DNA of 13,133 nt from an uncultured Faecalibacterium sp. (GTDB taxonomy: Bacteria > Bacillota > Clostridia > Oscillospirales > Ruminococcaceae): positions 1-13,133 of the forward strand of contig CAKSZU010000060.1 of the NCBI GenBank assembly GCA_934526125.1. Reading direction: 5' to 3'. Positions 415 through 13,020 of this stretch are shown here, piece by piece. Under the pieces are notes generated by a model. It was not told the origin of the DNA. It ran no database searches and saw only the letters and a program-made list of their open reading frames with translations. Both the position numbers and the translations under genes were made by a program. Every line of letters begins with the position of its first letter. Within the stretch, counting starts at the first letter, position 1.

Positions 415-1008
415 TTACAGGGTCTGCTTTGCTTCCTGCTTCATCTTGCGGCTGCCCAGATGCACCAGCGGCAGCTTACCCTCCTTGCAGATGGGGCACT
501 CCTCGGGGGCGTAGTTGGGCAGGTCCAGCTTCAGGGCACTGGCCAGAATGGGGATGGGAGACGGAGCCTCGGGCTTGGTGCGGTCCACCACGCAGGTGAT
601 GCCCAGGCAGACGCCGCCGGCCTCTTCGATGACCCGCTTGGTCTCCAGAGAGGAGATGCCGGTGGTGACCACGTCCTCGGCGATGATGCACTTCTCACCC
701 GGATGGATGGCAAAGCGCTTCAGGGTCATCACGTTGTCCACGCGCTCGGTAAAGATGGCGCGCTTGCCGGTCTGGCGGGCCAGCTCGTAGGCATAAACGA
801 TGCCGCCCATGGCAGGTCCCACGATGACGTCCACATCCAGCTCCTTCACCTTGTCGGCCACGGCCTTCATGACTTCGGCGCAGCGGTCAGGATACTGCTG
901 CAGGTAAGCCATCTGGCAGTAGGCGCTGGAATGGCGGCCGGAGGAGAGCAGGAAATGGCCCTCCAGGAATGCGTCGCAGCTCTTCAGGATCTCAAGTGCT
1001 TCACTCAT
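415..1008 (-). CDS. pyrE: Orotate phosphoribosyltransferase
   Basis: PyrE joins orotate and PRPP to form orotidine 5'-phosphate, the fifth step of UMP synthesis. The 197-residue protein carries the PRPP-binding motif CIIAEDVVTTGIS (about 107-119, acidic pair E111-D112) and the family segments LLSSGRHSSAYCQM (20-33) and VGPAMGGIVYAYELAR (63-78). A CPIC pair at 171-174 lies near the C terminus. I believe it is shared by a clostridial PyrE subgroup, but I cannot say it binds metal. An in-frame ATG 30 nt upstream exists, but the chosen start has a GGGAGAAG ribosome site 5-6 nt before it and gives the normal N terminus. The gene is 130 nt downstream of pyrD and has its own promoter in that gap, so it may be expressed partly independently of the upstream operon genes. 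Confidence 0.96.
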   Translation of the reverse strand: MSEALEILKSCDAFLEGHFLLSSGRHSSAYCQMAYLQQYPDRCAEVMKAVADKVKELDVDVIVGPAMGGIVYAYELARQTGKRAIFTERVDNVMTLKRFAIHPGEKCIIAEDVVTTGISSLETKRVIEEAGGVCLGITCVVDRTKPEAPSPIPILASALKLDLPNYAPEECPICKEGKLPLVHLGSRKMKQEAKQTL

Positions 1009-1047
1009 TGTACTTCTCCCTCTCTTTGAAAAAATCATTTGTACCGT

Positions 1048-1138: not shown

Positions 1139-2065
1139 TTATTCAGCGTTCCGGGCGCAGCCGCGGATCTCGTCCAGTGTCTTCACACCGTTTTTGTCCA
1201 TCCAGGCCGCCATCTCGTCCGCAATGGTCTCCATGGCGCGGGGGTTGGCAAAGTTTGCCGCGCCCACCTGCACCGCCGTTGCACCGGCCATGATGAATTC
1301 CAGTGCGTCGCGGCCGGTGGCGATGCCGCCCAGACCCACCACCGGGATCTTCACGGCACCCACGGCCTGCCAGACCATCCGCAGGGCGATGGGCCGCACC
1401 GCCGGGCCGGACAGACCGGCGAAGATGTTGTTGAACACCGGACGGCGCTTTTCCAGATCGATGGCGCAGGCCTGAAAGGTGTTGGTCAGGCTGATGGCAT
1501 CCGCACCGGCGGCCTCCACAGCCTTACACATCTCAGGGATGTTCTCGGCCTGGGGGCTCAGCTTGACCATCAGGGGCTTTTTGCAGGCCTCCCGGACCAT
1601 CCGGACCACTTCTCCGGCAGCCTCGGCCTTGACGCCATAAGCCATGCCGCCCACCTTGACGTTGGGGCAGGAGATGTTCAGCTCCACGATGTCCACCGCG
1701 CTCTCGCTGAGCAGGGCAGCACCCTCCACATACTCTTCCTCGCTGTGGCCGCCCAGATTGGCAATGGTCACGGTGCCGTATTTCTGCTTCAGCTCCAGCA
1801 TCTCGTTCAGCTCCACATTGATGAAGTGCTGGACGCCGGGGTTCTGCAGACCGATGCTGTTGATAAGGCCGGAAGGAGTCTCCCACAGGCGCTCGCCCTT
1901 GTTGCCGTACTGGCCGTGGAGGGTCAGGCCCTTGCCGGAGATGCCTCCGATCTTTGCAAAATCGGCCAGCTCCTCATACTCCACACCGTAGCCCACCGTG
2001 CCGGAAGCGCCGATGACCGGGCTGTTCATCACAAAGCCCAGCAGGTTTGTTTTCAGGTCAGCCAT
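1139..2065 (-). CDS. pyrD: Dihydroorotate dehydrogenase class 1B, catalytic subunit (NAD-linked, works with PyrK)
   Basis: This FMN enzyme oxidises dihydroorotate to orotate and passes electrons through PyrK to NAD+. The 308-residue length is typical of class 1B. Visible landmarks are the FMN/substrate segment ASGTVGYG (20-27), SIGLQNPGV (70-78), the active-site stretch VELNISCPNV (128-137) with Cys133 in the base position that defines class 1 enzymes, the lysine in MVKLS (168), LTNT (193-196), and the FMN-phosphate stretch GLGGIATGRDALEFIMAGA (244-262). Its ATG overlaps the pyrK stop as TGATG, so translation is probably coupled and subunits made in step. The adjacent PyrK is what separates class 1B from fumarate-using class 1A. 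No oddities are seen. Confidence 0.97.
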   Translation of the reverse strand: MADLKTNLLGFVMNSPVIGASGTVGYGVEYEELADFAKIGGISGKGLTLHGQYGNKGERLWETPSGLINSIGLQNPGVQHFINVELNEMLELKQKYGTVTIANLGGHSEEEYVEGAALLSESAVDIVELNISCPNVKVGGMAYGVKAEAAGEVVRMVREACKKPLMVKLSPQAENIPEMCKAVEAAGADAISLTNTFQACAIDLEKRRPVFNNIFAGLSGPAVRPIALRMVWQAVGAVKIPVVGLGGIATGRDALEFIMAGATAVQVGAANFANPRAMETIADEMAAWMDKNGVKTLDEIRGCARNAE

Positions 2066-2838
2066 CAGAAGAACACCTCCGTTGCATCAAAGACCGGGCC
2101 ATTCTTGCACACGCTCTTGCCCTCGCCGCCCTTCGTCTCACAGGTGCAGCCCAGGCAGGCACCAATGCCGCAGGCCATCTTCTTTTCCAGGCTCACAAAG
2201 CAGGGGGTGCCCTTTTCGGCGCAGAGACGGGCCGCATTCTTCATCATCACCGTGGGGCCGCAGACCAGCACGGCGTCATAATCCGCCGGGTCATACAGCT
2301 GGGTGACAAAACCGTGGAAGCCCACCGCGCCGGTGTCGGTGGAGACCTTCACGAGGTTGGCAAGAGGACGGTACTCCTCCATGCAGTAGGGGGTGTCCCG
2401 GAAGCCAAAGAACACGTCCGGCTTCACACCCGCAGCGGCCAGCTCCCGGGTGACCTGATACATGGGGGCCGTGCCGATGCCGCCGCCCACGACGGCGATC
2501 TTCTGATATTTCTTCACGAGGTCCGGCACATCGAAACCGTTGCCCATGGGGCCGGTCAGCTGGAAGGTGCCGCCCTTTTTCAGGTCAGCCAGCTTATGGG
2601 TGCCCTCGCCGATGACCTGATACAGGAACTCGATGGTCTTTGTCTCCGGCTCCCACTTATGGACGCTGATGGGCCGGGACAGGAAGGGCGCTTCGTCCGC
2701 ACCCCAGGCCCGCAGGGTGAAGAACTGCCCTGCATGGGGGAGATGCTCGCAGTCCGGCCAGAGGACCCGCAGCAGGCGGATATCCTCCGCGATGACCTCA
2801 TGGCTCAGGACAGTGGCCTCACAGCAGGCTGCACGCAT
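2065..2838 (-). CDS. pyrK: Dihydroorotate dehydrogenase electron-transfer subunit (FAD, [2Fe-2S])
   Basis: PyrK carries electrons from the FMN of PyrD to NAD+ through a [2Fe-2S] cluster and FAD. The 257-residue protein shows the flavin-binding segment FLSRPISVH (52-60), the nucleotide-domain run VGGGIGTAPMYQVTREL (117-133), LVCGPTVMM (191-199), and the C-terminal cluster motif with Cys223, Cys228, Cys231 and Cys244 (CGIGACLGC then KSVC), spaced CX4CX2CX12C as in the family. The start is the ATG at 2838, served by AAGGAGG at 2848-2854 with 9-nt spacing. A TTG 6 nt further upstream would be only 3 nt from that site. The gene therefore overlaps the end of pyrF by 20 nt and its ribosome site lies inside pyrF. 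Confidence 0.95.
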   Translation of the reverse strand: MRAACCEATVLSHEVIAEDIRLLRVLWPDCEHLPHAGQFFTLRAWGADEAPFLSRPISVHKWEPETKTIEFLYQVIGEGTHKLADLKKGGTFQLTGPMGNGFDVPDLVKKYQKIAVVGGGIGTAPMYQVTRELAAAGVKPDVFFGFRDTPYCMEEYRPLANLVKVSTDTGAVGFHGFVTQLYDPADYDAVLVCGPTVMMKNAARLCAEKGTPCFVSLEKKMACGIGACLGCTCETKGGEGKSVCKNGPVFDATEVFF

Positions 2839-3685
2839 GGGCAATGGCCTCCTTCATGTTCACACACTCGTTGTAAGCGGCCTCGTCGAAGGCGACGCCG
2901 GGCTGCTTTTTGTAAGCCAGCAGAATGCCGCGGCTGGAGTTGACCACGCCGCCGTTGCCCTTGGTGAGGTACTGGGCAATGTCCTCGGCCTTGCCGCCCT
3001 GTGCGCCGTAGCCGGGGATCAGGAAGAAGCTGTCCTGATACTTTGCGCGGATCTCGGTAGCTTCCTCGATGTGGGTGCCGCCGATGACCAGACCGATGGA
3101 GGAGTAGCCGTGCTCGCCCATATAGTCCTTGCCCAGTGCGTTCAGCTTGTCGCCCACCAGATCGTAGACGTGGCGGCCGTCGGCCAGCTTCTCGTACTCA
3201 AAGTCCTTGGCACCGCCGTTGGAGGTGCGGCAGAGAACGAACATGCCCTTGCCCTGCTTTTCGGCATAGGGCAGATAGGGGCTGATGGAGTCCAGACCCA
3301 TGTAGGGAGCCAGCGTCACGAAATCGGCCTCGAAATCGCCGGTGAAGTGGCCCATGGCATACATCTCAGCAGTCTTGGCGATGTCGCCGCGCTTGATGTC
3401 GGCGATGACGGGGACACCGGCCTCCCGCACAGCCTTCAGGGTCTCGGCGTAGGCCTTCAGGCCCTCCAGACCCAGAGACTCATAGTAAGCGATCTGCACT
3501 TTATAGCAGCCTGCCACGGCTTTGGTAGCATCGATGAGCTTCTGGTTGAAGCGGACGATGTTCTCGCCCTTCGTCAGGGTGCTGTCCACAAAATCGGCGG
3601 GCAGGTAGCTGAAATCGGTATCCAGACCCACGCACACCGGGCCGCGGGCTTCCACAGCTTCGTAAAGCTTATCCATGTTGGTCAT
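2819..3685 (-). CDS. pyrF: Orotidine 5'-phosphate decarboxylase (long, type 2 form)
   Basis: PyrF decarboxylates OMP to UMP, the last step of the pathway. At 288 residues it belongs to the longer family found in actinobacteria and many clostridia, not the roughly 235-residue E. coli form. The catalytic signature is VIADIKRGDIAKTA (about 94-106), with Asp96, Lys98 and Asp101 as the Asp-Lys-Asp charge network. The N-terminal VCVGLDTDF (17-25) contacts the substrate, and LIPGYGAQGG followed by VVNSSRGIL forms the phosphate-binding end of the barrel. The start has AGGAGG about 9 nt upstream. It lies 44 nt after pyrC and its 3' end overlaps pyrK by 20 nt. Nothing suggests loss of function. Confidence 0.97.
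   Translation of the reverse strand: MTNMDKLYEAVEARGPVCVGLDTDFSYLPADFVDSTLTKGENIVRFNQKLIDATKAVAGCYKVQIAYYESLGLEGLKAYAETLKAVREAGVPVIADIKRGDIAKTAEMYAMGHFTGDFEADFVTLAPYMGLDSISPYLPYAEKQGKGMFVLCRTSNGGAKDFEYEKLADGRHVYDLVGDKLNALGKDYMGEHGYSSIGLVIGGTHIEEATEIRAKYQDSFFLIPGYGAQGGKAEDIAQYLTKGNGGVVNSSRGILLAYKKQPGVAFDEAAYNECVNMKEAIAHACSLL
2848..2854 (-). promoter_or_regulatory. pyrK ribosome binding site inside the pyrF coding sequence
   Basis: A full AAGGAGG on the minus strand lies within the last codons of pyrF (the MKEA segment). It sits 9 nt before the ATG at 2838 but only 3 nt before the upstream TTG at 2844, so it decides the pyrK start in favour of the ATG. The arrangement implies that ribosomes finishing pyrF pass over the pyrK initiation region, which would couple translation. 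Confidence 0.8.
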
Positions 3686-3729: not shown

Positions 3730-4920
3730 TTACTCTTCCGCCTGATAGGTCAGCTCGCCGCCCTTGATGGTGGCGCAGACCTTCCCGTAAAGCTTGGCCC
3801 CGTCAAAGGGCGTGTTGTGAGACTTGGAGTGGAGCTTGTTCTTGTCCACCGTGTAGGGGGTGTCCAGATCCACCAGCACGAGGTCGGCGTCGTAGCCCGG
3901 CTCCAGCTGACCCTTGGCAAGGCCCAGGATCTCGGCGGGGCGGGTACTCATCAGGTGGCTCAGCAGCTCCAGCGGCAGGCCTTCTTCCCTGCAGAGCTTG
4001 GTGTAGCAGACCCCGAACGCGGTCTCGCTGCCCACCATACCGGCCATGCCCTTGAGCTTGTCCTCCTCGGAGTGGGGAGCGTGGTCGGTGGCAATGGCAT
4101 CCACCACACCGGTGCGGATGGCATCCACCAGCGCCTGCACATCGTCCGCCGTGCGGATGGGCGGGTTGACCCGGTAGTCGCAGGTCTCATTGGTGAACCA
4201 CAGGTGGTGGGGCGTCACCTCGCAGGTGACGGGTGCGCCCCGCAGCTTTGCCATCTGGACGGCCTCGATGGCCCCCCGGGTGGACACATGGCACATGTGC
4301 AGTTTGGTCTGGTAGTACTCGCTCAGCCAGCAGTTGCGCACCGTTTCCAGATCCTCGGCCAGCCGGTAGTCCCAGGGGCTGATCTCCATATCCTCGGCGT
4401 GGCTCATCACCGTGATATCCTTCTGGGTGCAGATGGCGAAAGCCTTTGCCATGGTGGCATTGTCCTGCACACCGTGGCCGTCCTCGGTGATGAACTTCAC
4501 GCCGGCGGGCAGGGTCTTGAGGTGGTCGATGCTCACGCCGTCGAAGTTCTCGGTGATGGAGACGGTCTGGTTCACATCGCACAGCCCCGCCTCGGCAGCC
4601 TTCTGCTCCACCATCGCGGCCTGTGCGGCCGAGGAGCAGACGGGTTTGGTGTTGGGCATCAGGTTCACGAAGGTGTACCCGCCGGCCGCAGCGGCGCGGC
4701 TGCCGGTCTCGATATCCTCTTTGTATTCAAAGCCCGGGGTCCGCCAGTGGCAGTGCAGATCCACAAAGGCGGGCAGCACCGTCAGCCCTCCGGCGTCCAG
4801 TACAGTCTCCCCTTCTCCGGCCAGCGGCGAAAGCTCTTGCCCGACGGCAGCGATCTTTCCGTCCCGGACATAGACTTCCACCGGGCGGCCCTCGGCGTTC
4901 ACAGCATTGATGAGCAGCAT
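3730..4920 (-). CDS. pyrC: Dihydroorotase
   Basis: PyrC cyclises carbamoyl aspartate to dihydroorotate using metal ions. The 396-residue amidohydrolase has the metal-binding motif VDLHCHWRTPG (53-63, His56 and His58; the usual residue before Arg is Leu, Val or Phe, here Trp), NLMPNTKPV, ITEDGHG, SHAED, EVTPHHL and ATDHAPHS, the last supplying the catalytic Asp. It resembles the type I enzymes of Gram-positive pyr operons, is somewhat shorter than the roughly 425-430 residues common there, and lacks none of the recognisable motifs. The ATG has GGGAGG 8-9 nt upstream. As first structural gene of the operon it lies behind a leader ORF and intrinsic terminator, so it should be the gene most directly controlled by that attenuator. 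Confidence 0.96.
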   Translation of the reverse strand: MLLINAVNAEGRPVEVYVRDGKIAAVGQELSPLAGEGETVLDAGGLTVLPAFVDLHCHWRTPGFEYKEDIETGSRAAAAGGYTFVNLMPNTKPVCSSAAQAAMVEQKAAEAGLCDVNQTVSITENFDGVSIDHLKTLPAGVKFITEDGHGVQDNATMAKAFAICTQKDITVMSHAEDMEISPWDYRLAEDLETVRNCWLSEYYQTKLHMCHVSTRGAIEAVQMAKLRGAPVTCEVTPHHLWFTNETCDYRVNPPIRTADDVQALVDAIRTGVVDAIATDHAPHSEEDKLKGMAGMVGSETAFGVCYTKLCREEGLPLELLSHLMSTRPAEILGLAKGQLEPGYDADLVLVDLDTPYTVDKNKLHSKSHNTPFDGAKLYGKVCATIKGGELTYQAEE

Positions 4921-4959
4921 GATTTTTTACCTCCCTGTTCGTGATTCGGATAGGCGGAT

Positions 4960-4977
4960 GCGGGTCCCGAGACCCGC
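4960..4977 (-). other. GC-rich hairpin between the pyr attenuator and the pyrC ribosome site
   Basis: In the transcript GCGGGTC pairs perfectly with GACCCGC across a TCGG loop. There is no T tract, so it is not a terminator. It lies 8 nt after the T run of the attenuator and about 25 nt before the pyrC ribosome site. It might protect the 5' end of a processed message or insulate the pyrC initiation region. This is inference. Confidence 0.45.
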
Positions 4978-4985
4978 GGACAGGC

Positions 4986-5019
4986 AAAAAAAAGAACTTT
5001 TCCACAAATGGAAAAGTTC
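4986..5019 (-). terminator. Intrinsic terminator (attenuator) in the pyr operon leader
   Basis: The minus-strand transcript forms a perfect 11-bp stem, GAACTTTTCCA (5019-5009) with TGGAAAAGTTC (5004-4994), across a TTTG loop, followed at once by eight T residues (4993-4986). The first stem base is the G of the leader ORF stop codon TGA (5020-5018). A ribosome reaching that stop would cover the 5' arm and block the hairpin. The position before pyrC and after a U-rich coding tract is what is expected of a UTP-sensitive attenuator. I see no strong competing antiterminator helix, which fits a mechanism where the ribosome itself is the antiterminator. Confidence 0.9.
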
Positions 5020-5104
5020 AGAAAGCGAAAAAAGGAAACACGGAACCCACCGCAAAAACGGCTGCAAACTGCTTTTTCAGTTTTGCGCTCATCTTTGACA
5101 GCAT
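5018..5104 (-). CDS. Leader peptide of the pyr operon, 28 residues (proposed pyrBI-like attenuation control)
   Basis: This short ORF starts with ATG at 5104, is preceded by AAGGAG (5115-5120) with 10-nt spacing, and ends with TGA inside the foot of the attenuator stem. The peptide begins [13 protein letters not shown] and ends VFPFFAF, with six Phe residues. Its last 13 sense codons are U-rich (21 of 39 nt), and the run is uninterrupted up to the stop. In E. coli pyrBI a leader peptide read through a U-rich tract lets the ribosome follow a paused polymerase when UTP is low and melt the attenuator; this segment has the same parts in the same order. The peptide itself is probably unimportant. 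An in-frame ATG 7 codons upstream (5125) lacks a ribosome site. A Phe-tRNA attenuator is the rival reading, but the downstream genes are pyrimidine genes. Confidence 0.75.
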
Positions 5105-5144
5105 CCGTCCGCTTCTCCTTTTCATCTGCGATTCATTTCGTTAT

Positions 5145-5174
5145 ATTTTAGCATAGAAACGCAAAATGTGTCAA
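5145..5174 (-). promoter_or_regulatory. Main promoter of the pyr operon
   Basis: A perfect -35 TTGACA (5169-5174) and a -10 TAAAAT (5145-5150) are separated by 18 nt, with a TGC just before the -10 (extended -10). Predicted start is near 5138, giving about 33 nt before the leader ORF and a leader RNA of about 150 nt if it ends at the attenuator. No PyrR-binding loop resembling the Bacillus consensus is seen in the leader. Confidence 0.85.
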
Positions 5175-5312
5175 TGCTTCCGGCCTTTTTTCTGTGTGAA
5201 AAGGTTTTGGCTCTATCCCGCGGATTTTTGGCTACTATACCAAAAAACGTTTTCCCGCCGGGATTTCCCCTGCGGCAGGGGGGATTTTTCGGTTCAATTC
5301 CTAGCAGAGTGC
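5175..5312. other. Divergent intergenic stretch between the pyr and cysE promoters
   Basis: About 140 bp between the -35 of the pyr promoter and the -35 proposed for cysE. It contains no supportable ORF with a ribosome site. It holds a small CCC/GGG hairpin (5253-5262) and the terminator-like hairpin listed separately. The whole gap between the leader ORF and cysE is about 300 bp and is too short and unstructured for a T-box. I see nothing else in it. Confidence 0.6.
5263..5289 (+). terminator. Terminator-like hairpin upstream of cysE
   Basis: CCCCTG (5267-5272) pairs with CAGGGG (5276-5281) around a CGG loop. The stem can extend by four weaker pairs to 5263/5285, including two G-U pairs, and is followed by T5 (5285-5289). 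There is no gene before it on the plus strand. It may stop stray transcription entering cysE, or be an attenuator if a promoter lies further upstream, for which I found no good candidate. Confidence 0.35.
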
Positions 5313-5341
5313 TGTACATTGAAGTTCACATGTGTTATTAT
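5313..5341 (+). promoter_or_regulatory. Likely cysE promoter
   Basis: TGTACA (5313-5318, 4 of 6 to consensus) and TATTAT (5336-5341) are spaced 17 nt. A TGT directly before the -10 makes it an extended -10 element like others in this window. The predicted start near 5348 gives a leader of about 60 nt containing a small GC hairpin (5367-5381, GCCGTC with GACGGC) and the ribosome site. A shifted TATATT -10 is an alternative. Confidence 0.5.
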
Positions 5342-5407
5342 ATTGGTATATCAGAAAAGAGAGAGAGCCGTCCCGGACGGCACAGAGGAAAAGGGAGGTT
5401 TTTTCCC

Positions 5408-6082
5408 ATGAGCTTACTGGAGGATGCGCGGAATATCCAGCGCAAAGATCCTGCGGCCCGCAGCGTACTGGAAGTGATCCTGCTCTACCCCGGTTTTCAC
5501 ATTCTGGTCTATCATCGCATCGCACACTGGCTGTACGAGCATAAACACTTCTTCCTGGCACGGTGGGTCAGCCAGCACGGACGGCACAAGACCGGCATTG
5601 AGATCCACCCCGGTGCCAGGATCGGCAAGTGCCTGTTCATCGACCACGGCATGGGCATCGTGTTCGGCGAGACCACCGAGATCGGCGACAACTGCACCAT
5701 CTACCACGGTGTCACCCTGGGCGGCACCGGCAAGGATACCGGCAAGCGCCACCCCACCTTGGGCGACAACGTCCTGATCGGTGCGGGCACCAAGGTGCTG
5801 GGCCCCGTCTATATCGGTGACAACGCCCGCATCGGTGCCGGCAGCGTGGTGCTGAAGAACCTGCCCGCCAACTGCACGGCCGTGGGTGTGCCCGCCGAGG
5901 TGGTGCGCATCAACAACAAGGCCGTCAATCCTGCCGATGATCTGGACCAGCAGGATCTGCCGGATGTGGTCGCCCAGCGCCTCACCGACCTCGACCGCCG
6001 GATCGGCGCACTGGAAAACGCCGCGCAGGGTGATGTTCCCCCCAGCATCCACGAGGTCCTCCAGAAACAACAGCAGTCTTAA
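5408..6082 (+). CDS. cysE: Serine O-acetyltransferase
   Basis: CysE transfers acetyl from acetyl-CoA to L-serine, giving O-acetylserine for cysteine synthesis. The 224-residue protein has a helical N terminus (about 1-60) then a left-handed beta-helix of hexapeptide repeats: [10 protein letters not shown] (64-73), [17 protein letters not shown] (77-93, catalytic His80), [15 protein letters not shown] (102-116, acetyl-CoA/serine loop), [16 protein letters not shown] and AVGVPAEVV. Glu65 stands where the E. coli enzyme has its relay Asp, as in Gram-positive homologues. The C-terminal tail (170-224) is charged and heptad-like. The frame is open another 80 codons upstream, but GGGAGG 9 nt before this ATG and the normal N terminus decide the start. 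It is the only plus-strand gene, divergent from pyr, and monocistronic, ending at its own terminator. No cysK is adjacent. Confidence 0.95.
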
Positions 6083-11125: not shown

Positions 11126-12400
11126 TCAGCGCTCGGTCAGTTTCCGGAACGCTTCCCGCACCTCGCCGGAGAAGTACAGCGTCCCCAGCGCACAGACCGG
11201 ACCGCTGCCGCCCAGCGCAACAGCCCGGGCCACACCGGCTTCCACGGTGGGGGCGGGCTCTGCCCTGCCGCCCCGGACCCGGATGCGTTCCGCCAGCGTC
11301 TTGGCCGGCATTGCCCGGGGTGTGCTGGCCGCCACGGTGACGAACTGCTCTGCCAGCGGCAGCAGCAGTTCCAGCATCTCGTCCACGTCCTTGTCGGCCA
11401 TGATGCTCAGCAGGAACACGAACTTCTGCCCGGGGAACCGGTCCCGCAGGCTCTGCACCGTGGCCCGCATCCCGTGGGCGTTGTGGCTGCCGTCCAGCAG
11501 GAAGGCCGGGGTATGCCGCAGCAGCTCGAACCGGCCCGGCCAGCGCACCGTCTCCAGCCCGGTGCGGATGGCCTGCTCCGGGATGTTCCACCCCCGGCCC
11601 CGCAGCACCCGCAGGGCCGTGATGGCCACAGCGGCGTTCCTGGGCTGGTAGCTGCCGATGAGGGGCAGCCGGACCCCGTTCAGTCCGTCAAAATCAAAGG
11701 TGACAGCATCCAGACTGCCGTCCCCCATCTTCAGTTTCCCGAAATCCACCACCGTCAGGGGGGCCCCCTGCTCTGCCGCTGCCCGGGCGATGACGGCATC
11801 GGCTTCGGGCACACCGCCGTAGCTCACCACCGGGCTGCCGGGCTTGATGATCCCCGCCTTGGCCGAGGCGATGTCGGCGAGGGTGGGGCCCAGCTCCTTC
11901 ACATGGTCCATCCCCAGCGCCGTGATGACCGCGCACTCCGGGGGATCGATGACGTTGGTGGAGTCCAGCGTACCGCCCAGCCCCACTTCCAGCACCACGA
12001 TGTCGCAGCGGCGCTCAGCAAAGTACAGCATTCCCAGCGCCGTGATGATCTCGAACTCAGTAGGCACGTCGGCCATGGCGTCGGCGGCGGGGCGCACCCG
12101 CTCCACCAGCCGCACCAGCTCCTGATCCGGGACCTGCTCCCCGTCCACCTGGATGCGCTCGTTGAACCGATTGATGAAGGGCGAGGTGAACAGCCCCACC
12201 CGGTACCCCGCCGCCTGCAGGCAGGAGGCCAGCATGGCCGCCGTGCTGCCCTTGCCGTTGGTGCCCGCCACATGGACGAACTTCAGCGCCTTGTGGGGGT
12301 CGCCCAGCGCCGCCAGCAGGGTGCGGGTCCGTTCCAGACCCGGCTTGTGCCCCGCCCACTGGACGGCATGGATGTAATTCAGTGCAGATTCGTAATCCAT
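11126..12400 (-). CDS. folC: Folylpolyglutamate synthase / dihydrofolate synthase
   Basis: FolC adds glutamate to folates with ATP, which keeps them in the cell and makes them better cofactors; many bacterial forms also make dihydrofolate from dihydropteroate. The 424-residue protein shows the Mur-ligase-like layout: HVAGTNGKGSTAAML (43-57, P-loop), GLFTSPFINRFNERI (69-83), EFEIITALGMLYF (115-127), EVGLGGTLDSTNVI (138-151), ALGMDHVKELGPTLADIA (161-178), KAGIIKPG (181-188), GSYQPRNAA and LLDGSHNAHGM. Lys181, the usually carbamylated lysine, is present, but the residue before it is Ala where I recall Glu in most homologues. AAGGAG lies 6 nt before the ATG. It starts 22 nt after folT under the shared folate-responsive leader. 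Whether it has the dihydrofolate synthase activity is open, since no other folate biosynthesis gene is in view. Confidence 0.95.
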   Translation of the reverse strand: MDYESALNYIHAVQWAGHKPGLERTRTLLAALGDPHKALKFVHVAGTNGKGSTAAMLASCLQAAGYRVGLFTSPFINRFNERIQVDGEQVPDQELVRLVERVRPAADAMADVPTEFEIITALGMLYFAERRCDIVVLEVGLGGTLDSTNVIDPPECAVITALGMDHVKELGPTLADIASAKAGIIKPGSPVVSYGGVPEADAVIARAAAEQGAPLTVVDFGKLKMGDGSLDAVTFDFDGLNGVRLPLIGSYQPRNAAVAITALRVLRGRGWNIPEQAIRTGLETVRWPGRFELLRHTPAFLLDGSHNAHGMRATVQSLRDRFPGQKFVFLLSIMADKDVDEMLELLLPLAEQFVTVAASTPRAMPAKTLAERIRVRGGRAEPAPTVEAGVARAVALGGSGPVCALGTLYFSGEVREAFRKLTER

Positions 12401-12422
12401 AGCGTTCTCCTTGCCCGCCGTT

Positions 12423-12935
12423 TTATTTTACCGCTACCCGGCGCAGGGCTTTGTTCTCCAGCAGGAGCCGCACCAGAAGCGCGTTCACGATGGCAAGGAC
12501 CACGGCGTTGGGGATCCGGGTCACCAGCAGCGACCACGGATAGTTATAGAACAGGTGCAGGGCCAGCGAGTTGATGACCACCGAGCCCACCAGATGGCCC
12601 GCCGCAGTGCTGCACTGGAGCCGCAGCCCCAGCTTCAGCCCGGGCAGGCGGCGGAACACAAGGCCGGACACCAGACCCACCGAGCCGGCCCCCAGCGTGA
12701 TCAGCGGGTTGATGGCGTAGCCGGACAGAGTGCCGCCGATGAGGTCGGCCAGCGCCCCCACTGCGAAGCCCCCCGCCGGGCCGAACCAGACCGCCGCCAG
12801 ATGGGTGGGCAGCGCCCCGAGGTTGAACCGGACAAAGCCGGTGGAGATGGTGAACACCCTTGCAAACACGATGCTCATGGCCGTCAGCAGGGCCAGCATC
12901 ACAAGTGTGCGGACGGAATTTCTGGACTGTTTCAT
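12423..12935 (-). CDS. folT: ECF transporter substrate-binding (S) component for folate
   Basis: A 170-residue integral membrane protein with about six hydrophobic segments, the size and layout of ECF S components, which bind a vitamin and work with shared EcfA/A'/T subunits encoded elsewhere. The run FVRFNLGALPTHLAAVWFGP (34-53) followed by GFAVGALADLIGGTLSGYAINPLITLG resembles the FolT folate group. The short N-terminal helix with VRTLVMLALLTAMSIV is where S components contact EcfT. The folate call is strengthened by folC 22 nt downstream and by the tetrahydrofolate-type riboswitch upstream. The frame is open 25 codons further upstream into the leader terminator, but GGGGAGG 9 nt before this ATG sets the start. 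A thiamine or other vitamin S component is less likely given the context. Confidence 0.88.
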   Translation of the reverse strand: MKQSRNSVRTLVMLALLTAMSIVFARVFTISTGFVRFNLGALPTHLAAVWFGPAGGFAVGALADLIGGTLSGYAINPLITLGAGSVGLVSGLVFRRLPGLKLGLRLQCSTAAGHLVGSVVINSLALHLFYNYPWSLLVTRIPNAVVLAIVNALLVRLLLENKALRRVAVK

Positions 12936-12979
12936 ATCAATTGTCCTCCCCTTTCCGGGATCTTCTGCGGGGCGGACAG

Positions 12980-13020
12980 AAAACGCCCTCCCCTGTGACA
13001 AACCGCACAAAGGAGGGCGT
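12980..13020 (-). terminator. Terminator hairpin in the folT leader (riboswitch expression platform)
   Basis: The transcript segment 13020-13006 pairs with 12997-12983 over 15 consecutive positions (nine strong pairs ACGCCCTCC/GGAGGGCGT, then two G-U pairs, then TTGTG-side pairs) around an 8-nt loop, followed by TTTT and CTGT. No promoter is seen between it and the folT ribosome site, so folT-folC messages must read through it. That makes it a conditional terminator governed by the upstream aptamer rather than a plain operon end. Confidence 0.75.

Follow-up and report, generated by a model that had tools for sequence, protein, structure and literature searches.

How does a Firmicute that appears to lack PyrR, the regulator under which the pyrimidine operons of this phylum are usually filed, control its pyr genes? 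We addressed this question at a locus of an uncultured Faecalibacterium sp., a member of a genus abundant in the human gut; the window, that is, the whole stretch of DNA analysed, comprises 13,133 nucleotides. On its minus strand, a short leader ORF and an intrinsic terminator precede the genes pyrCFKDE, and this tiny leader gene probably lets the cell gauge its own UTP, in a phylum in which the coupling of ribosomes to RNA polymerase is thought to be weak. The parts of the leader, and the pyr genes, which were called with curated models that each scored above their own cut-off, are as follows:

5145..5174, minus strand: sigma-70-type promoter TTGACA-18-TAAAAT with TG before the -10 element, 11/12 matches
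5115..5120, minus strand: Shine-Dalgarno sequence (SD) AAGGAG of the leader ORF, read from the sequence and, in the predicted fold, base-paired to the U-rich tract
5018..5104, minus strand: predicted leader ORF of 28 codons, ATG at 5104, UGA (5020-5018) on the hairpin foot
5021..5059, minus strand: U-rich, A-poor tract (21 U in 39 nt), where UTP-sensitive pausing and pairing with the SD are proposed
4986..5019, minus strand: intrinsic terminator (attenuator), 11-bp hairpin plus U8, fold -13.8 kcal/mol
3730..4920, minus strand: pyrC, dihydroorotase, TIGR00857 over cut-off
2819..3685, minus strand: pyrF, orotidine-5'-phosphate decarboxylase, TIGR02127 over cut-off
2065..2844, minus strand: pyrK, dihydroorotate dehydrogenase electron-transfer subunit, NF000798 over cut-off
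1139..2065, minus strand: pyrD, dihydroorotate dehydrogenase, NF005574 over cut-off
415..1038, minus strand: pyrE, orotate phosphoribosyltransferase, TIGR01367 over cut-off

Every part that the preliminary description of this DNA had listed, from the promoter through AAGGAG, the 28-codon ORF, the 21 U in 39 nt and the UGA on the foot of the 11-bp hairpin to the U8 ahead of pyrC, was recovered where it had been placed. The hairpin (5019-4994) consists of 11 pairs and a loop of 4, and is followed by the U8 at 4993-4986. An alternative in-frame ATG at 5125 would lengthen the ORF to 35 codons, with no SD visible by eye. A promoter scan of positions 4800-5500 gave a single minus-strand promoter (5174-5145) and none between the hairpin and pyrC, and promoters of a similar kind were read in relatives. 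The stretch from just behind the -10 element to the end of the terminator (4985-5145) folds with -57.8 kcal/mol (z -5.0; 0 of 200 shuffles as good), and this predicted structure joins the SD segment to the U-rich end of the ORF and keeps the terminator hairpin as a separate element.

This architecture is widely kept among relatives. The pyrC search returned 39 loci, of which a short, weak match (L039) and two Clostridium loci (L036, L037) were set aside; eight Faecalibacterium loci (L001-L007, L019) share 90-93% identity with the pyrC of the window. Of the remaining 36 loci, 32 carry a leader before pyrC, and in four (L022, L023, L025, L038) pyrI, assigned by reading, lies directly before it. 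In all 32 direct pyrC leaders, an SD-like site is followed by a short ORF that stops at the hairpin, and a U-run is present, so that relatives indeed retain the expected SD and open frame as well as the position of the stop. Genomes of the window's family were searched with the hairpin alone, which avoids a bias from the ORF, and in both this and the order-wide search the conserved CUUUUCC/GGAAAAG stem served as the query. Of 247 family genomes, 26 carry the pattern, each as a single copy, and the reversed-pattern control gave no match. Twenty-two of these hairpins lie within about 205 nt of a pyrC match and four about 1.1-1.2 kb upstream of pyrC; in L045, L046, L047 and L063 the gene that follows is pyrB by reading. 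All 26 are preceded by a short ORF that stops at the hairpin or, in one case, inside it. In the window's order, 7 of 394 genomes matched, which added one new leader (L102) to six already in the set.

After deduplication, 49 distinct leaders were available, with an ORF called in 47, where the start of L064 was set by hand. L010, whose hairpin the script missed, and L060 and L061, whose ORFs were missed for want of a well-spaced SD, were left out of the statistics; the ORF of L010 is present in a separate listing, and L060 and L061 show ORFs ending at the hairpin by eye. An SD-like site was scored ahead of the ORF in 47 of the 49, and most start codons are ATG, the exceptions being GTG (L024, L027) and TTG (L057-L059). 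The distance from start to hairpin foot is 67-97 nt in 46 leaders (86 nt in the window) and 49 nt in one. A stop codon, be it UGA, UAA or UAG, adjoins the hairpin in 46 of the 47 called leaders; in L062 it lies 14 nt into the hairpin, and in the variant leaders L085, L087 and L088 it lies 9-14 nt inside, a point absent from the preliminary description. Either position would place the terminating ribosome on the hairpin. A script filter for an SD-like site, an ORF of 14-45 codons and a stop exactly at the foot was passed by 43 of 47 distinct leaders, compared with 0.7% of dinucleotide shuffles and 3.7% of controls in which the stop codon was left in place. The ORF-plus-terminator design of the leader in the window is confirmed as real.

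Beyond this set the picture becomes more varied. Twenty further pyrC upstream regions without the pattern included five with a variant leader (L082, L083, L085, L087, L088). In the more distant relatives L083, L084, L085, L087, L088, L089 and L092, variant hairpins follow U-rich stretches at some distance upstream of pyrC, with ORFs called in L083, L085, L087 and L088; L084, L089 and L092 are suggestive of a variant leader by eye only. No leader was accepted in 12 of the 20 regions, among which L086, L094 and L099 end at contig ends. A script match in L093, with a TTG start and a GC-rich terminator, was judged different from the attenuator leaders. No ORF-plus-terminator was found in the 501 nt upstream of pyrB at 16 loci (pyrB is present in the genomes of 14 of the 16 relatives); L080 has a terminator without an ORF there, and several pyrB loci sit behind another gene. 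At the Faecalibacterium-type loci L067, L069, L074, L077 and L079 this neighbour, read from its residues, is a GntR-family regulator gene, which may encode a second pyrimidine regulator.

What is conserved in these ORFs is nucleotide content more than peptide. The leader peptides are alike within Faecalibacterium, and by eye they have nothing obvious in common between distant leaders. For statistics, the 47 leaders were grouped into 19 clusters by ungapped tract identity, which is not a phylogeny; since the ungapped comparison split off at least two Faecalibacterium leaders (L009, L019), the P values over clusters are rough. Averaged over clusters, U makes up 37/45/42% of codon positions 1/2/3 in the last 13 codons, against 12/27/11% in the downstream gene. 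Synonymous third positions of these codons hold 104 U where 45 are expected (sum over the 19 clusters), and the count exceeds expectation in 18 of 19. The last 42 nt of the ORF contain 41% U and 10% A, and because A is scarce, the enrichment cannot be mere AT-richness. Runs of UUU are in excess in 16 of 19 clusters when mononucleotide shuffles are the reference (P = 0.0004), and in 14 of 19 when codon shuffles are (P = 0.04). The early part of the ORF is also raised in U (27/27/28%; 68 synonymous U against 32 expected), so that U is not confined to one pause site and the sensing stretch may be broad. Individual leaders are weakly U-rich, with 9 U in the last 39 nt of L046 and 11 in L059 and L065. 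Across 24 pairs of relatives, which are not independent of one another, pN/pS is 0.53 (0.49 for the 13 final codons), as would be expected of a translated ORF. The expectation of a U-rich tract combined with a non-conserved peptide thus held: the U-rich, A-poor tract is kept, and distant peptides differ.

The search for pyrR, another proposal of the preliminary description, likewise came out in favour of its reading. The pyrR model exceeded its cut-off in none of 16 relatives and did so in the Clostridium acidisoli control; weak matches below cut-off occurred in all 17 genomes, as other phosphoribosyltransferases would give. Across the family, pyrR was found in 107 of 247 genomes and in none of the 26 with the attenuator (lists compared by eye). 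This mutual exclusion reaches P = 2e-7 in Fisher's test with relatedness ignored, and kinship may be its cause. Neither pyrR nor the attenuator pattern was present in 114 of the 247 genomes, five of which carry the variant leaders L082, L083, L085, L087 and L088, so that lack of pyrR does not imply an attenuator. Rfam matched neither PyrR nor any other element over threshold in the window, the 16 relative loci and four more loci; as six control loci around true pyrR genes gave no PyrR element either, the statement that no PyrR loop is seen carries little weight. Two lncRNA matches of the window fell below threshold and were ignored.

Among known systems, the leader is most readily compared with that of E. 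coli pyrBI (pyrL), where a short ORF and a U-rich tract likewise precede a hairpin and U-run ahead of pyr genes. The distance from ATG to hairpin foot is 88 nt in pyrL and 86 nt in the window, the U-rich stretch of pyrL lies 20-30 nt before the foot, and a GCC follows the U-run in both. However, the pyrL ORF spans the hairpin, with its stop 44 nt past the foot, whereas the ORF of the window stops at the foot; we take the stop beyond the hairpin to be a feature of the E. coli example and not of the mechanism. Hairpin stem and peptide also differ by eye, and the first gene after the leader is pyrC here, with pyrB by reading at L045-L047 and L063 instead. At the E. coli pyrE attenuator behind rph, which works by UTP-dependent coupling, the upstream ORF stops just before the terminator; there, however, this ORF is a full enzyme gene, whereas here it is a dedicated short leader. 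With the PyrR attenuators of Bacillus and other Firmicutes the locus shares a leader terminator ahead of a Firmicute pyr operon, yet no pyrR exceeded cut-off in the 16 relatives or the 26 attenuator genomes, and a ribosome-readable ORF takes the place of the protein-binding loop. In excerpts of the literature, the pyrBI leader is a short ORF that a uridine-rich stretch overlaps (PMC3641672), and leader-peptide attenuators are reported for histidine genes in bacilli (PMC2965389). The latter also place a short ORF ahead of a premature terminator in Gram-positive bacteria, but as excerpted they sense an amino acid by a codon run (PMC2965389), whereas the leader of the window appears to sense a nucleotide by its U content. 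According to an excerpt of PMC4824070, terminators of amino-acid attenuators lie >20 bp from the leader gene and the pyrBI terminator lies within it; by this spacing the present leaders belong with pyrBI. Titles and abstract openings in the largely open-access literature contained no report of UTP-sensing attenuation in Faecalibacterium or other Firmicutes.

Taken together, the anatomy, its conservation, the enrichment of U as a nucleotide and the lack of pyrR over cut-off in the tested relatives make it likely, with good confidence, that the leader is a ribosome-coupled, UTP-sensing transcription attenuator that works like that of enterobacterial pyrBI; the sequence-level tests thus support the preliminary reading through the conserved architecture, the U-rich tract and the pyrR search. 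Leader translation, polymerase pausing and the response to UTP are here inferred from sequence. With ample UTP, the polymerase would cross the U-rich end of the ORF fast, the hairpin would fold before a ribosome arrives, and transcription would end in the U8, leaving pyrCFKDE off. With scarce UTP, the polymerase would pause in the U-rich tract, and a ribosome starting at AAGGAG could read the 28 codons. Once on the UGA at the hairpin foot, it would cover the 5' arm and block the hairpin, and transcription would read through into pyrC. Once clear of the polymerase, the U-rich tract could also pair with the leader SD, which would close the time for ribosome loading. A pyrBI-type attenuator in a Firmicute lineage without PyrR is probably of independent origin, as judged from the different hairpins, stops and peptides, which points to more than one origin of nucleotide-sensing attenuation.

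Other readings of the same leader have to be weighed against this. If the leader were an amino-acid attenuator, the supply of charged tRNA, for instance for Phe, would stall the ribosome in the ORF and select an antiterminator; the Phe-rich tail VFPFFAF of the window and the FP or FF of several other leaders are in line with this. However, the 47 peptides share no common amino-acid run by eye, with tails as different as ALFPVAAPGLRI, GDFSAHLP and ARGIAF, and U is raised at synonymous sites as well. Pairing of the two hairpin arms with the leader exceeds that in codon shuffles slightly, short of significance (P = 0.07 and 0.09; 11 and 12 of 19 clusters), and the stop abuts the hairpin instead of lying >20 bp away as excerpted for that class (PMC4824070), so that we regard this explanation as extremely unlikely. 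Arrest of the ribosome at the stop by its own nascent peptide, in response to a pyrimidine metabolite, would agree with the stop codon on the hairpin foot, the pN/pS of about 0.5 and the similar peptide tails within Faecalibacterium, but the C-termini of distant leaders differ by eye. The C-termini of arrest peptides are not known to diverge in such a manner, and this reading too is very unlikely.

Control of the leader by PyrR or some other RNA-binding protein, with an incidental ORF, is similarly very improbable. The occurrence of PyrR in 107 of 247 family genomes speaks for such a protein, as does the strong conservation of the CUUUUCC/GGAAAAG stem, although this stem was itself the query of the family searches; against it stand the missing pyrR over cut-off in 16 relatives and 26 attenuator genomes and, with the reservation that six true pyrR loci were equally blank, the lack of an Rfam element in the window and the 16 relative loci. 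Finally, the bacterium might be uncoupled and the leader no more than a plain small gene or a regulatory RNA that has its own terminator, with pyrC transcribed by steady leakage. Ordinary genes of the same loci also end close to their terminators (median 18 nt, n = 23), and an excerpted review predicts a short distance from gene end to terminator for Firmicutes (PMC10953045). Yet there is one such hairpin per genome, in 26 of 26 cases before pyrC or pyrB (by reading), the peptides are not conserved, and the promoter scan of the window gave no minus-strand promoter between hairpin and pyrC, which leaves this reading quite unlikely.

Returning to the UTP-sensing attenuator, we found an additional feature that the preliminary description did not contain: most leader clusters show complementarity between the SD and the U-rich tract of the same leader. 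Over 47 leaders, SD region and own tract pair with a mean of -18.3 kcal/mol, compared with -14.9 for foreign SDs and -14.4 for codon-shuffled tracts. The own pairing is better than that with foreign SDs in 17 of 19 clusters and than that with foreign tracts in 16 of 19, and the observed mean was reached in 0 of 20,000 permutations, although clusters are not fully independent. In whole-leader folds, with 40 codon shuffles each for comparison, overall pairing of the SD is raised in 15 of 19 clusters (P = 0.012), its pairing with the last 45 nt is raised in 15 of 19 (P = 0.04), and fold energies are better in 18 of 19 (mean z -1.9). The base pairs used for this contact differ among leaders (L006, L011, L020, L026). 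In the window, the duplex itself is ordinary (-17.6 kcal/mol; 14 of 40 foreign SDs and 34.5% of codon shuffles are as good), and in the fold the SD is paired at 0.99, a value matched by 3% of shuffles. Other leaders depart from the pattern: the SDs of L032 and L047 bind their own tract worse than foreign SDs do, those of L045-L047, L057-L059 and L062 are paired elsewhere in the fold, and the clusters of L032, L035, L048 and L064 show no excess of SD pairing in folds. The E. coli pyrL SD, unlike that of most leader clusters here, shows no excess complementarity to its tract (0.285 of codon shuffles as good).

We tentatively propose, as a possibility that is less likely than not, that the U-rich tract has two jobs, namely that of a UTP-sensitive pause site and that of the strand which shuts the leader's own SD after leaving the polymerase. 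The SD would then be open only until the tract emerges, and low UTP would prolong the loading time, a kinetic gate in which UTP sets the length of the loading window for one pioneer ribosome. With such a two-job tract, a bacterium whose polymerase outruns its ribosomes could still use ribosome-blocked termination. This gating of the SD is new to us and incompletely supported.

An objection to the attenuator model touches on a wider issue. According to excerpts of a review, Firmicutes as a whole are predicted to lack coupling between ribosome and polymerase, and a short distance from stop to terminator is a signature of uncoupling that is predicted for all of them (PMC10953045). In the loci studied here, ordinary gene ends lie at a median of 18 nt from their terminators (n = 23, range -13 to 116, orthologues included), and baseline transcription in this lineage may be uncoupled. 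Such a baseline fits the model, as the terminator would work by default and only a slowed polymerase would be caught. An attenuator of this kind makes sense only if a ribosome catches the polymerase; if our reading is true, a metabolite-dependent pause would switch coupling on locally, and whether UTP can make an uncoupled transcript a coupled one could be tested directly on this leader.

Several minor features surround the operon. In the interval between attenuator and pyrC, a GC-rich hairpin (GCGGGTC/GACCCGC) lies on the minus strand at about 4960-4977, and GC-rich repeats are seen by eye in some relatives. Divergent to the pyr operon, cysE (serine acetyltransferase) starts at 5408 on the plus strand. 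Upstream of it, at 5265-5284 of the plus strand, lies a second terminator-like hairpin with a T-run, so that cysE may have a leader control of its own. Between cysE and the pyrC promoter, at 5225-5247, we noted the inverted repeat TTTTTTGG-TATAGTAG-CCAAAAA, a possible operator, of which other Faecalibacterium loci hold altered yet palindrome-like counterparts. Farther away, at 11126-13010 on the minus strand, folC adjoins a gene for the S component of a folate-family ECF transporter (TIGR04518).
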